Shown here: positions 23,844-28,391 of the stretch, piece after piece
How the letters are laid out: every line of letters begins with the position of its first letter
Numbering within the stretch: the stretch's first letter is position 1
Assembly (NCBI GenBank): GCA_903835255.1
Contig: CAILMI010000011.1
Coordinates: 1-39,284, forward strand
Direction of reading: 5' to 3'
Origin: an uncultured Verrucomicrobia subdivision 3 bacterium
GTDB lineage: Bacteria > Verrucomicrobiota > Verrucomicrobiia > Limisphaerales > UBA11358
DNA length: 39,284 nt
Program-made: the position numbers and the translations under genes
Notes under the pieces: model-generated
Databases searched by the model: none
Told to the model about the DNA's origin: nothing
What the model saw: the letters and a program-made list of their open reading frames with translations, nothing else

Positions 23844-25091
23844 ATGGAACGTATTTTTGCCACTTATCGGATCGAAACGCCTCTGGCTGTGGAGGCCGCC
23901 GCGGCGGCGCTCGCCGGCGAACAATCCTCGGGCACTTTCGTTGCTGTTCCGGGCGAAACCGAGGAGCTGAAAGAGCGCTTTGCCGCGCGAGTAGAAAAAA
24001 TCACACCGCTCGAATCCGTCCCCCAACCCGCGCTTCCCGGCGCCCGGCCCGGCGCGGGACCCTTTCAACGCGCGGAAATCGTGGTTTCCTGGTCGGTGGA
24101 CAATATGGGGCTTAACTTGCCCGCTCTCGTCTCGACCCTCCAAGGCAACCTCTATGAACTGTCGCAGTTTTCAGGCCTTAAATTGAGGGATGTGGAACTG
24201 CCGCCGTCCTTTGCCCGGCATTTCCAGGGCCCCCGATTCGGGGTGGCCGGCTGCCGCAAACTCACGGGCGTCGAAGGCCGCCCGCTCCTTGGCACTATCA
24301 TCAAGCCGAGCATTGGGCTGACGCCGCAGCAGACGGCGGAACGGGTCCAGGTTTTGGCCGGGGCGGGCATTGATTTTATCAAGGATGACGAGCTGATGGC
24401 CGACCCGCCGCATTCGCCGTTCGACCAGCGGGTGGACGCGATCCAGCGCGTGCTCGAGGATCAGGCGCAGCGCACTGGCAAAAAAGTGATGTACGCCTTC
24501 AACATCAGCGACGAGCTCGATGCGATGCAGCGGCACTATGACAAGATTGTCAATTCGGGAGGAATCAGCGCGATGATTTCGCTGAACAGCGTTGGACTGG
24601 CGGGCGTGAAAAAAATCTGTGACCGGGGCGCACTGGCCATTCACGGCCATCGCAACGGCTGGGGGATGTTGAACCGGCACCCGCTACTGGGCATGGAGTT
24701 CACCGCGTACCAAAAACTCTGGAGGCTTGCGGGCGTGGACCAGATTCATGTCAACGGCATCGCCAATAAGTTTTGGGAGGACGACGATTCGGTCGTGCGC
24801 TCGATCGAGGCATGCGGCGCGCCCCTGCTCGGGGGGATGTCGGTGCTGCCGGTGGTTTCCTCGGGTCAATGGGGCGGTCAGGCTCCAGAAACCTATCGCC
24901 GCACCCGGACGCTGGATCTGCTCTACATGGCCGGCGGCGGCATTCTGGCGCATCCCGGCGGTCCGGCCGCAGGCGTGCGCTCGCTGCAGCGATGGTGGGA
25001 GGCGGCGGTCGAAGGCCTCACCCTGGAACAAGCTGCCGCCCGGTATCCCGAACTGAAGATCTCGGTGGAGAAGTTTGGGAAAAAAGGTTGA
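23844..25091 (+). CDS. RuBisCO-like protein (form IV RLP), probable acid-sugar-phosphate decarboxylase or transcarboxylase
   Basis: The 415-residue protein has the RuBisCO large-subunit fold: alpha/beta N-terminal domain (EQSSGTFVAVPGET, 26-39), then the barrel. Equivalents of key RuBisCO residues are Asn102 (N123), Lys154 (K175, GTIIKPSIGLT), Lys180-Asp182-Glu183 (carbamylated K201, D203, E204), His269-Arg270 (H294-R295), His302 (H327), Lys309 (K334), Ser339 (S379 region) and GGG 364-366. Replacements are Ser156 for K177 and Trp273 for H298, so it is not a CO2-fixing enzyme. The signatures 'IHGHRNGWGM' and 'SSGQWGGQAPETY' fit the RLP group that includes 3-oxo-isoapionate-4-phosphate decarboxylase and transcarboxylase/hydrolase of D-apionate catabolism. 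A DUF1537 kinase starts 10 bases downstream, which agrees. Exact substrate unproven. Confidence 0.9.
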   Translation: MERIFATYRIETPLAVEAAAAALAGEQSSGTFVAVPGETEELKERFAARVEKITPLESVPQPALPGARPGAGPFQRAEIVVSWSVDNMGLNLPALVSTLQGNLYELSQFSGLKLRDVELPPSFARHFQGPRFGVAGCRKLTGVEGRPLLGTIIKPSIGLTPQQTAERVQVLAGAGIDFIKDDELMADPPHSPFDQRVDAIQRVLEDQAQRTGKKVMYAFNISDELDAMQRHYDKIVNSGGISAMISLNSVGLAGVKKICDRGALAIHGHRNGWGMLNRHPLLGMEFTAYQKLWRLAGVDQIHVNGIANKFWEDDDSVVRSIEACGAPLLGGMSVLPVVSSGQWGGQAPETYRRTRTLDLLYMAGGGILAHPGGPAAGVRSLQRWWEAAVEGLTLEQAAARYPELKISVEKFGKKG

Positions 25092-25101
25092 AATTTCGCG
25101 C

Positions 25102-26499
25102 ATGAGCCGGCTTTTTCTAACCTTCTACGGCGATGATTTGACCGGCTCCACGGATGCGATGGAGCAGCTGACCACGGCCGGCATCCGCACCGCCCTGTTC
25201 TTTGAGCCGCCCACCCGGGGGCAGCTCGCCCGATTCAAAAACCTGGGAGCAGTCGGGGTCGCGGGCAGGACGCGGTCTCTGGCACCGGCCGCGATGGCGC
25301 GGGAGCTCCGTCCCGCCCTGGTGGCGCTCCGCGCCCTCGGCGCCCGGCACGTCCACTACAAAATCTGCTCCACCTTTGACTCCTCTCCCGCCCTCGGCAA
25401 CCTGGGATGCGTGATGGATATTGCCGCGGATATTTTTCACGCCCCGTTTGTGCCGCTGCTCGTCGCCGCCCCGGCGCTGGGGCGCTACACGGTTTTCGGC
25501 AATCACTTTGCACGTTACGGCATTGGCAGCACGGGGGCCATCCACCGCCTCGACCGGCACCCCTCCATCAGCCGGCATCCGGTCACGCCGATGGGGGAAG
25601 CCGATTTGCGCCGGCATCTGTCGAGGCAGACGAAAAAGACCCTCGCGCTGTTCGATATTCTGAAGGTGGCGCTGCCCTTGAAGGAAGCGCAGCGGGCGTT
25701 GAAGCAGCTGCTTGCTGAAAAACCGGGTGTGGTTTTGTTTGATGCACTCACGGACGCACACCTCGCCTGCATCGGCCATCTGCTGGAAGGCCTTGCCCGC
25801 AGCCGCCGCCCGCTGTTCTCCATCGGCTCGTCCGGAATTGAAACCGCGCTGACGGCCAGCCGCTCTGCGGGCGGCACTGGAACGCACGTTCAAGTGAAGC
25901 GGGGGAGTTCAAAGATACCTGGGCCGGGCCGGGCGGCAATACTGCTAGCGGGGTCGGGCAGCTGCTCGCCGGTGACCGGGGGGCAGATTGCGTGGGCGTT
26001 AAAAAACGGATTTGCCGAAGTGCCGCTCGATACGGCGGCGCTTGCGACCCCGGGGACGCGGGGGGCAGAAATCACGCGGGCGACAAGGGCGGCGGCGAAG
26101 CTGCTGCAAGCCGGGCGCAGCGTGGTGGTTCACACCACTCGGCGCGGGGCGGACCAACGCATCGCCGCGTCGCTAAAAAAACAGACCGCTCGCATTCTGG
26201 GGACGGCTCTGGGCAGCGTGCTGCGCGGCGCACTGGAACAATCCCAGGCGGGGCGCCTGTGCATTGCCGGCGGCGACACCTCAAGTTTTGCCGCGCGGGC
26301 GCTGGGCATGGAAGCCCTGGAAATGATTGCGCCGCTGACGCCGGGCGCGCCGCTGTGCCGCGCATTCGCCCCCGGCTCGCCTGCCGACGGTTTGGAAGTG
26401 GTGTTCAAAGGCGGACAGGTCGGCGCGGAAAACTATTTCGGGATGGTGAGAGACGGAAACAACCGAAAAAACCGCGCGCCCGTGCGGCGCCCCTTGTAG
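25102..26499 (+). CDS. DUF1537 four-carbon acid sugar kinase
   Basis: ATG 25102 gives 465 residues; a start at 25075 overlaps the RLP and adds nothing conserved. The N-terminal domain begins with the family motif YGDDLTGSTD (9-18) and carries 'KICSTFDSSPALGNLGCVMD'. The C-terminal nucleotide-binding domain has 'LLAGSGSCSPVTGGQIAWAL' and 'CIAGGDTSSFAARALG'. The family phosphorylates sugar acids: known members act on threonate, erythronate derivatives and 3-oxo-isoapionate (OiaK). Next to an RLP the last is the best analogy, with the RLP acting on the 4-phosphate. The racemase-like gene follows after 4 bases. The C-terminus ends in a basic tail (GNNRKNRAPVRRPL) beyond the usual domain. No Shine-Dalgarno is visible, suggesting coupling to the upstream gene. 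Confidence 0.88.
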   Translation: MSRLFLTFYGDDLTGSTDAMEQLTTAGIRTALFFEPPTRGQLARFKNLGAVGVAGRTRSLAPAAMARELRPALVALRALGARHVHYKICSTFDSSPALGNLGCVMDIAADIFHAPFVPLLVAAPALGRYTVFGNHFARYGIGSTGAIHRLDRHPSISRHPVTPMGEADLRRHLSRQTKKTLALFDILKVALPLKEAQRALKQLLAEKPGVVLFDALTDAHLACIGHLLEGLARSRRPLFSIGSSGIETALTASRSAGGTGTHVQVKRGSSKIPGPGRAAILLAGSGSCSPVTGGQIAWALKNGFAEVPLDTAALATPGTRGAEITRATRAAAKLLQAGRSVVVHTTRRGADQRIAASLKKQTARILGTALGSVLRGALEQSQAGRLCIAGGDTSSFAARALGMEALEMIAPLTPGAPLCRAFAPGSPADGLEVVFKGGQVGAENYFGMVRDGNNRKNRAPVRRPL

Positions 26500-26503
26500 A
26501 ATC

Positions 26504-27163
26504 ATGAAACAAAAAACCCTCGGCCTGGTCCACACCTCAGCCACGCTGGTGCCGGTGTTTGCGCAGCTATGCAAAGATAAGCTTCCCGGCGTGAACGTCT
26601 TCAATATCGCTGATGACAGCCTGGTAAAGGGCATTATCGCCGCCGGCAGCCTGACGCCAACCATCGCGCACCGGGTCGCGAGCTACCTGAAGTCCGCCGA
26701 GCTGGCAGGCGCGGATTACATTCTGGTCACCTGCTCGTCCATCGGCCCGGCGGTGGAAGCGGGCGCGGAACAGATCGGCGTGCCGGTGTTGCGCGTGGAT
26801 CAGCCGATGGCGGACAAGGCGGTGGCCCTCGGCGCAAGGATTGGCGTTGTCGCCACATTGCGGACGACGCTGACGCCGACGGCGGATCTGATCCAGCGCC
26901 GCGCGGACATCGCCGGAAAGAAAATCCAGCTCACCTCCCGTCTGTGCGAGGGAGCCTTTGAGGCCCTGATGCGGGGCGATGCGGCGGCGCACGACTCGAT
27001 GGTCGCGGCGGCTCTCAAGGAATTGTCGCAGGAGACGGACGTGATTGTGCTGGCGCAGGCTTCGATGGCGCGGGTGGTGGACGGGCTTGCGCCGGAGGAT
27101 CGGCGCGTGCCCATTCTAGCGAGCCCCGGGATTGCCGTGGATTATCTGGCAGCGGTGCTGTGA
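26504..27163 (+). CDS. Asp/Glu/hydantoin-racemase-superfamily protein lacking the second cysteine
   Basis: The protein has 219 residues and the two-lobe racemase fold signature: 'LGLVHTSATLVPVFAQL', first-lobe cysteine motif 'LVTCSSIGPAVE' (Cys77) and 'GARIGVVATLRTTLTPTADLI'. True amino-acid racemases use a second cysteine in a 'GCT' motif of the other lobe; here the equivalent position reads 'IVLAQASMARVV' (183-188), with no Cys. It is therefore more likely a one-cysteine isomerase, tautomerase or decarboxylase, as known for arylmalonate decarboxylase and related superfamily members. In this operon it may interconvert enantiomers or tautomers of the oxo-acid sugar that the kinase or RLP uses. 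It starts 4 bases after the kinase stop, and the transporter begins 25 bases after it. Annotation as a plain racemase would be misleading. Confidence 0.8.
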   Translation: MKQKTLGLVHTSATLVPVFAQLCKDKLPGVNVFNIADDSLVKGIIAAGSLTPTIAHRVASYLKSAELAGADYILVTCSSIGPAVEAGAEQIGVPVLRVDQPMADKAVALGARIGVVATLRTTLTPTADLIQRRADIAGKKIQLTSRLCEGAFEALMRGDAAAHDSMVAAALKELSQETDVIVLAQASMARVVDGLAPEDRRVPILASPGIAVDYLAAVL

Positions 27164-27188
27164 CGGGCGGCTTTTTTTGAATTCAAAA

Positions 27189-28391
27189 ATGAATCCAGCC
27201 TGGCAACCCCTCGCCGTTCTTCTGGCTGTTGCGGCCGCTATCGGCCTGCGCTTCTCCAAACGATATGGCGGCTACCAGTTCACCGCCTGGATCATCGCGG
27301 TGGTTACGGCGGCGATGATTTATCCGGCAAGCTTTCTTCACGTCGGCGACTTCGACATGAAGAACAAATGGGTTCTGCTGATCGCCATCCAGATGGTGAT
27401 GTTCGGGATGGGAACCCAGATGAGCCTGCGCGACTTTGCGGGCGTTATGAAATCGCCCCGCGGCGTTTTTGTTGGAATCCTCTGTCATTTCACGGTCATG
27501 CCGCTGGTGGGCCTGGCGCTGACGAAGGTGTTTCATTTTGAGCCGGAGATTGCCGCCGGCATCATCCTGGTCGGCTCCTGTTCCAGCGGGCTGGCGTCGA
27601 ACGTGATGGCCTACATCGCCCGATCCAATCTCGCCCTCTCGGTCACGGTCACCGCCGTGACAACCCTGCTGGCGCCGCTGCTGACGCCGCTGTGGATGAA
27701 ACTGCTGGCCGGCACGCTGGTTGAAATCAGCTTTATAAAGATGATGTCGGAAATCATCAAAATCGTCCTCGTCCCGGTGTGCGCCGCCCTGCTGCATGAC
27801 TATCTCAAGCAGGCCTCGCCCCGCGGCCGGCGGAGGGTTCAAGCCATCAACGCCATCGCCGTCGGGTGGCTGCTGTGCTTGGCGGGTGGCGGGTGGGGAT
27901 GGCTGCAAATGCATTGCGAGGAAGGCATGCGGACGGCCATCGCATTGGGAGGGTTTTTACTGAGCGCCTCCGTCATCGGCACGGCGTATCATGCGCTGGC
28001 GAAGCGATGGACGGGGCTGGACGGCCGCATGCCCGCCCTATCCATGGCGGGCATCCTGTATGTCACGGCGGTGACGGTTGCCTCGGGGCGAGACCATCTG
28101 CTTCAGGTTGGCGCCCTGCTGTTCCTGGCGGCAGCGCTGCATAACACGGCGGGCTATGGCTTCGGTTACTGGCTGAGCCGCGCCTCCGGCTTGGACAAGA
28201 ACTCCGCGCGCAGCATCGCATTCGAAGTGGGCCTGCAAAACGGGGGCATGGCGTCTGGTCTGGCCAGCGCGATGGGCAAGCTGGGCACAGTGGGGCTGGC
28301 GGCGGCCATTTTCATTCCATGGATGAACGTCAGCGGCTCGCTCCTGGCGAATTACTGGCGCAAGCGTCCGTCGCCCGCTGCGCCCCGCTAA
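27189..28391 (+). CDS. BASS-family (bile acid:sodium symporter-like) organic acid transporter
   Basis: ATG 27189 gives 400 residues with about ten membrane helices; a longer frame from 27132 overlaps the racemase-like gene. Family hallmarks are 'VMFGMGTQMSLRDFAGVMKSPRGVFVGILCHFTVMPLVGLAL', the unwound-helix motif 'GSCSSGLASNVMAYIARSNLALSVTVTA' (129-156) and 'AFEVGLQNGGMASGLASAMG' in the second repeat. The family carries organic anions (bile acids, pyruvate, pantoate and other hydroxy or oxo acids) with Na+. As the last gene of the RLP operon it probably imports the sugar acid or an oxo-acid that the kinase and RLP process. Known D-apiose pathways often use ABC importers, so a BASS importer would be a different entry point. 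Repeat module copy 2 follows immediately. Confidence 0.87.
   Translation: MNPAWQPLAVLLAVAAAIGLRFSKRYGGYQFTAWIIAVVTAAMIYPASFLHVGDFDMKNKWVLLIAIQMVMFGMGTQMSLRDFAGVMKSPRGVFVGILCHFTVMPLVGLALTKVFHFEPEIAAGIILVGSCSSGLASNVMAYIARSNLALSVTVTAVTTLLAPLLTPLWMKLLAGTLVEISFIKMMSEIIKIVLVPVCAALLHDYLKQASPRGRRRVQAINAIAVGWLLCLAGGGWGWLQMHCEEGMRTAIALGGFLLSASVIGTAYHALAKRWTGLDGRMPALSMAGILYVTAVTVASGRDHLLQVGALLFLAAALHNTAGYGFGYWLSRASGLDKNSARSIAFEVGLQNGGMASGLASAMGKLGTVGLAAAIFIPWMNVSGSLLANYWRKRPSPAAPR

Follow-up and report, generated by a model that had tools for sequence, protein, structure and literature searches.

Which compound is broken down by the products of a tight run of four genes, encoding a RuBisCO-like protein (RLP), a DUF1537 kinase, an Asp/Glu-racemase-fold protein and a BASS-family transporter, in the genome of an uncultured Verrucomicrobia subdivision 3 bacterium? 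The run occupies positions 23844-28391 of the stretch of 39,284 nucleotides analysed here (GCA_903835255.1, contig CAILMI010000011.1, 1-39,284; hereafter the window), and according to the ORF (open reading frame) calls and translations all four genes share the plus strand, with intergenic gaps of 10, 4 and 25 bases. The four genes are a real and conserved cassette, uncharacterised as far as our literature search reached, and they probably constitute a cytoplasmic catabolic route for L-aceric acid (3-C-carboxy-5-deoxy-L-xylose). This acid sugar, rare and branched, is a constituent of side chain B of rhamnogalacturonan II (RG-II). The gene families, their conservation and their association with an enzyme of glycoside hydrolase (GH) family 127 are observed, and from these we infer the substrate, the reactions, their order and the transport.

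RG-II, a pectin of the plant wall, is one of the most intricate polysaccharides that plants make, and bacterial use of the aceric acid released from it appears undescribed. In the portions of the literature searched, which excluded Carter 2018 and Ndeh 2017, we found no catabolic pathway for released aceric acid and no work combining an RLP, a racemase and an acid-sugar kinase, and the publications treating RLPs together with DUF1537 do not describe this cassette in the parts available. A first-pass annotation of the window is partly supported as a whole: its four gene identities are borne out by Pfam, its operon agrees in coordinates, strand and gaps, and its predicted succession of import, isomerisation, phosphorylation and cleavage is in our judgement right, while taxonomic scope and apiose as a substrate are points corrected here.

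Distribution and conservation

The RLP alone was used as query against GTDB genome contigs, and the best 80 of 581 loci were analysed. All four genes were present in 71 of these 80 loci, 68 of them with identical order and strand and three (L024, L042, L044) rearranged. Because a search with only the RLP returned the other three genes in 71 of 80 cases, the four-gene arrangement is far beyond chance, and the conservation of the neighbourhood, whose absence the first-pass annotation had named as refuting, is thus established. The loci belong mostly to Bacteroidota and Verrucomicrobiota, with two in Planctomycetota (L020, L054), so that the cassette is not a speciality of Verrucomicrobiota: Bacteroidota hold it too, and Planctomycetota hold three of its genes. 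Among the nine loci short of four genes, contig ends cut L006, L048, L070 and L080, while L020 and L023 stop 335 and 384 bases past the last gene seen and may be cut or variants; at L018, L031 and L054, where the flanks are long, the variation is real. The kinases absent at L018 and L031 sit elsewhere in those genomes; the racemase-fold and BASS genes of L018 and the BASS gene of L054 were scored at the level of the locus.

Association with an aceric-acid hydrolase

The ORFs of the 80 loci were clustered and the cluster representatives named by Pfam. A GH127 gene lies within the fetched flank in 35 of the 80 loci. In 22 of the 80 it is the immediate upstream neighbour on the cassette strand, a position at which the runner-up is a GH2 (five loci) and 26 loci have none. 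The GH127 copy of L012 scored 875 bits with PDB 5mqo vs 404 bits for the next GH127, and its model, computed from 19 aligned copies, had as first Foldseek match the same entry, 'Glycoside hydrolase BT_1003', at 53% identity; another GH127, BT3674, is 31-32% identical to this copy. The remaining 34 copies, some of them fragments, are at least 47% identical to that of L012. BT1003 is an aceric acid hydrolase (PMC10850190; PMC5698469). Other recurrent neighbours are GH106 (18 loci), DUF5703/GH95-like (17), LacZ-type GH2 (14), SASA esterase (13), GH78 (12), GH141 (10) and BT_1020-like proteins (5). These are RG-II-type hydrolases. The GH127 beside the cassette is thus BT_1003-like and other RG-II-type hydrolases lie nearby, as in the RG-II loci of Bacteroides thetaiotaomicron, which are said to have been described together with the aceric acid hydrolase BT_1003 by Ndeh et al. 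2017. BT_1003, as cited, frees the sugar; the step that follows inside the cell would fall to the cassette.

Co-occurrence was counted in 213 genomes of the Verrucomicrobiota phylum and 247 of the Bacteroidota, the centres of both samples (G000 and G225) themselves holding the cassette. At a threshold of E 1e-80 the RLP was found in nine of the 213 genomes, and the same nine hold the racemase-fold protein with at least 67% identity, with four weaker matches elsewhere. A GH127 of at least 700 bits, a line drawn after seeing a gap between 712 and 629 bits, occurs in all nine cassette genomes vs one (G143) of the 204 others (Fisher 4.8e-15, for genomes that are related and not independent), and it lies at most 20 kb from the RLP in eight of the nine. 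For Bacteroidota, with the RLP in six of 247 genomes, the corresponding counts are 6/6 vs 9/241 (Fisher 1.7e-8, with the same dependence). The apiosidase PF13204 is present in two of the nine cassette genomes (84 and 100 bits) vs 28 of the 204 others (Fisher 0.62), and the BT_1020-like PF24067 in eight of nine vs three of 204. Further, where the flank holds no GH127, all of the cassette genomes tested (35 of 35) encode one at another place with at least 710 bits; these represent 35 of 45 loci, the other ten being L003, L006, L020, L051, L054, L061, L064, L066, L070 and L080. By these counts the cassette is a trait of RG-II use, and of the three proteins compared it is the aceric-acid hydrolase that accompanies it most closely.

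The genome of the window, which is 97% complete, holds a GH127 with 695 bits to 5mqo vs 376 for the next, on a contig that also carries a pectate lyase, a GH78-type rhamnosidase and an altronate/galactarate dehydratase family protein. Matches to apiosidase (E 1e-20) and to a BT_1020-type domain (E 1e-15) are absent from it, so that even in this genome the cassette is paired with the hydrolase for aceric acid.

Properties of the four proteins

All four proteins exceed the Pfam gathering scores of their families (RuBisCO_large and its N-domain; SBD_N and NBD_C; Asp_Glu_race; SBF). The RLP has the RuBisCO large-subunit domains without being form I-III (218 bits against rubisco_III, cut-off 497) and is thus a form IV RLP. 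It scores 515 bits against the OiaX model NF042437, under the equivalog cut-off of 700, and is about 51% identical to OiaX. The kinase, with 193 and 120 bits for SBD_N and NBD_C, belongs to DUF1537; it reaches 402 bits against the OiaK model NF042436 (equivalog cut-off 700) and is 43% identical to the kinases adjoining two rhizobial OiaX. By the NCBIfam test both proteins therefore fall outside OiaX and OiaK but probably function in much the same way as these enzymes, and the kinship with the D-apionate pathway that the first-pass annotation had proposed is borne out, OiaX and OiaK giving the best matches among the NCBIfam models. The kinase is a candidate for phosphorylating the C1 hydroxyl of a ketose.

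In RuBisCO numbering, the equivalents of E60, N123, K175, K201, D203, E204, H294, H327 and K334 are kept in 81 of 81 cassette rows, while those of W66 and K177 are F and S. Two rhizobial proteins, OiaX by annotation rather than by assay, have D, G and Q at the E60, N123 and H327 equivalents, and seven other RLPs retain these three. The RLP tree, drawn from 18 of the 79 cassette loci, the window and a Rufibacter homologue (currently annotated 'ribulose-bisphosphate carboxylase large subunit family protein'), places the cassette RLPs in one group (20 rows, support 100/96) that joins the two rhizobial proteins weakly (88/77). OiaC, which the first-pass annotation had listed among the RLPs, is presumably not one.

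The Asp/Glu-racemase-fold protein scores 76.9 bits against PF01177 (cut-off 31), and no NCBIfam model matched it at E 0.001. Its AlphaFold2 (AF2) model (pLDDT 95) superimposes on aspartate racemase 1jfl with Z 21.5 and a root mean square deviation of 2.4 over 205 residues at 17% identity; the fold is clear, and the first catalytic cysteine is shared. This cysteine, C77, is retained in 76 of 76 cassette proteins, whereas at the second catalytic position, where the two-base Asp/Glu racemases carry another cysteine, Gln185 is invariant (33 of 33); two-base racemisation is therefore not expected. The earlier description of a one-cysteine protein holds for the catalytic positions and not literally, as C23 and C148 are also present, though not conserved in all. 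Identities of 53-80% across 32 aligned relatives mark the protein as part of the system, and it is a candidate one-base aldose-ketose isomerase: a one-base 1,2-hydrogen shift would explain a fold that keeps C77 with the second cysteine replaced by Gln185.

The BASS protein belongs to PF01758 (SBF; 120 bits, cut-off 24.3) and scores 196.5 bits against TIGR00841, under the cut-off of 326.3. Its nearest solved structures are transporters of the bile-acid-symporter family, e.g. 3zuy, and it is a candidate importer of the free acid.

Proposed pathway

A BT_1003-type GH127, presumably exported, whose gene adjoins the cassette in many relatives and lies on a different contig in this genome, would free aceric acid, whose anion the BASS protein would import. 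The racemase-fold protein could then move the C2 hydrogen to C1 with its one cysteine as base, which would turn the aldose into the 2-ketose HOOC-C(OH)(CHOH-CH3)-CO-CH2OH; the DUF1537 kinase would phosphorylate the terminal CH2OH to give the 1-phosphate, and the RLP would strip the carboxylate to leave an enediolate. Protonation of the enediolate would yield a 5-deoxypentulose 1-phosphate, which an aldolase could split into dihydroxyacetone phosphate and acetaldehyde; alternatively, the neighbouring carbon would be re-carboxylated, and hydrolysis would then give 3-phosphoglycerate and L-lactate.

The chemistry offers a close parallel. OiaK and OiaX act on HOOC-C(OH)(R)-CO-CH2OH with R = CH2OH, phosphorylated in the case of OiaX, and in the ketose of aceric acid R = CHOH-CH3. 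By chemical reasoning, this ketose is 3-oxo-isoapionate with one extra methyl and hence a beta-keto acid, and what such a ketose needs, namely a transporter, an aldose-ketose isomerase, a kinase and an RLP, is exactly the set of four cassette genes.

For the RLP, the candidate activities on the phosphorylated aceric-acid ketose are decarboxylation and transcarboxylation with hydrolysis. Of these, transcarboxylation with hydrolysis appears somewhat favoured over plain decarboxylation, because the RuBisCO carboxylation residues are kept and also because no aldolase would be required. The decarboxylase branch has candidate downstream enzymes in the four class II aldolase matches of the window's own genome, which have no link to the cassette. 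For D-apiose, reports exist of RLPs of either type (PMC6302742). More doubtful is the full proposal that this is the first pathway for aceric acid and proceeds through a one-cysteine racemase-fold isomerase and an RLP with carboxylation residues to 3-phosphoglycerate and L-lactate.

If true, the cassette would be a testable four-gene answer to the question of aceric acid use and would suggest a type of reaction that is new to the racemase fold. DUF1537 substrates so far are 3-oxo acids whose alpha-carbinol bears R = H or R = CH2OH, and R = CHOH-CH3 would extend this series. Additionally, the cassette would serve to mark the genomes of Bacteroidota and Verrucomicrobiota that use aceric acid, and it would help to name vaguely annotated RLPs.

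Alternative explanations

Several points weigh against an aceric acid route. To our knowledge, aldose-ketose isomerase activity has no precedent in the Asp/Glu racemase superfamily, and we know of no PF01177 member that isomerises aldoses. The two Planctomycetota loci have no BASS gene in the stretch available, the statistics above carry a line drawn afterwards and related genomes, and in the window's genome the GH127 is not linked to the cassette (contig C15 vs C11). G143 and nine Bacteroidota genomes hold the GH127 without the RLP, and the cassette also tracks BT_1020-like proteins, so the association is partly with RG-II use in general. Specificity varies within GH127, and distant homologues may have new specificities, as suggested in PMC5698469.

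The tracking of BT_1020-like proteins is what speaks for another RG-II acid, such as Dha (3-deoxy-D-lyxo-2-heptulosaric acid) or Kdo (3-deoxy-D-manno-octulosonic acid), or for an unidentified branched acid from RG-II loci: besides the genome counts (8/9 vs 3/204), a BT_1020-like gene directly follows the RLP in L018 and L031, and these proteins presumably release Dha. We consider this explanation rather unlikely, as the window's genome has cassette and GH127 without a BT_1020-like match, the usual direct neighbour is GH127, and, by chemical reasoning, Dha and Kdo lack the tertiary carbinol adjoining a carbonyl that the RLP chemistry requires. A version of the D-apiose/apionate pathway, in which RLP and kinase would act on 3-oxo-isoapionate with the upstream enzymes encoded elsewhere, is unlikely, even though OiaX and OiaK are the top NCBIfam matches and apiose is also an RG-II sugar (PMC6302742). 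Both proteins stay under the NCBIfam cut-offs, the OiaX-annotated rhizobial proteins differ at the E60, N123 and H327 equivalents, and apiosidase, the one apiose source tested, is found in 2/9 cassette genomes vs 28/204 others, with no match in the window's genome; by this distribution and these residues, apiose is disfavoured as substrate. No racemase or BASS gene is listed beside the two rhizobial OiaX in an incomplete gene table, in which one of them has triose-phosphate isomerase and RpiB-type genes, and the loci with split transketolase (below) fit a separate apulose route. The cassette nonetheless shares with the D-apionate pathway, whose OiaK (DUF1537) and OiaX/OiaT (RLP) were reportedly described by Carter et al. 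2018, a tandem of kinase and RLP from the same families and, as predicted here, a likewise phosphorylated beta-keto, alpha-hydroxy branched acid as substrate. It differs in its partners, the racemase-fold protein, the BASS transporter and often GH127, and in keeping the three residues.

Catabolism of some other branched sugar is very improbable: an RLP is reported for the D-hamamelose pathway (Kim 2018, as cited in PMC10176493 and PMC8914248), but the recurrent neighbours here are RG-II-type hydrolases. Methionine salvage by an MtnW-type RLP, which shares the superfamily, is hardly conceivable, since the two MtnW models score 163 and 124 bits against cut-offs of 409 and 513.6, vs 515 bits for OiaX, and no salvage genes are among the recurrent neighbours named; a grouping with MtnW, which had been named beforehand as refuting, was thus not seen, and MtnW identity is disfavoured. 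An L-aceric acid route accordingly remains the preferred reading. The earlier guess of a different branched acid was right in our judgement; the RG-II and BT_1003 context had been missed; it is visible only in related loci.

Genomic surroundings and related loci

Features of the window are collected in Table 1. A scan for promoters and terminators gave nothing above chance level. The GH2 gene divergent from the cassette encodes a LacZ-type protein. L002, L004 and L006 likewise have a GH2 gene that lies upstream of the cassette and points away from it, separated from it by one ORF in L002 and L006. The best PDB match of the window's protein, 6sd0, is a beta-galactosidase, and the GH2 enzyme BT_0993 has the galactosyl-beta-1,2-aceric acid of RG-II as its substrate (PMC11739564); weakly, and by analogy, this suggests a candidate partner that might strip galactose from aceric acid.

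Table 1. Coordinates of the cassette genes and the divergent GH2 gene in the window
Feature	Coordinates	Strand	Remarks
RuBisCO-like protein (RLP), 415 aa	23844..25091	+	PF00016/PF02788; nearest NCBIfam OiaX
DUF1537 kinase, 465 aa	25102..26499	+	PF07005/PF17042; nearest NCBIfam OiaK
Asp/Glu-racemase-fold protein, 219 aa	26504..27163	+	PF01177; C77 and Gln185 at catalytic positions
BASS-family transporter, 400 aa	27189..28391	+	PF01758 (SBF)
Divergent LacZ-type GH2, 1123 aa	20324..23695	-	Best match in GH2 cluster of 14/80 loci; PDB best 6sd0

Five loci have a split transketolase, four of them with a sugar-isomerase-like gene (cluster c36, no PDB match) and two with an FGGY kinase. L011:1654-14672 and L027:1657-14734 show a same-strand run of sugar-isomerase-like gene, split transketolase, GlpK-like FGGY kinase, GH127, MFS and cassette, which looks like a second sugar route, perhaps from apiose to apulose phosphate, joined to the cassette. 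G143 has an RG-II-type locus with a BT_1003-type GH127 and no cassette (contig C27:645000-680000; L110, L111); there c36 and a transketolase half adjoin the GH127, and the two modules are therefore separable.

Pairs of RLP and DUF1537 kinase also occur in other settings. On a Streptomyces plasmid (L097:1235-15242), a divergent pair lies among GH78, GH2, GH28 and an alcohol dehydrogenase, with no racemase or BASS gene listed, and is maybe an independent RG-II acid route. Three proteobacterial pairs (L094:3415-9567, L095:3512-9528, L098:3650-9491) follow a VOC-family gene and TRAP transporter genes and represent another uncharacterised RLP group. At L087:8998-15485, the Sinorhizobium OiaX-annotated gene and its kinase adjoin an opposite-strand xanthine-dehydrogenase-type operon, and no listed neighbour is named for apiose. 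The four weak racemase relatives examined on plasmids (45-52% identity) gave no hint of function, their settings differing between an ABC transporter with amino-acid-metabolism genes, GH38 with a class II aldolase, and a sugar locus. A haloarchaeal plasmid (L096:3835-9695) carries an RLP and a DUF1537 gene with a racemase-fold gene, a short-chain dehydrogenase/reductase (SDR) and a VOC protein nearby.

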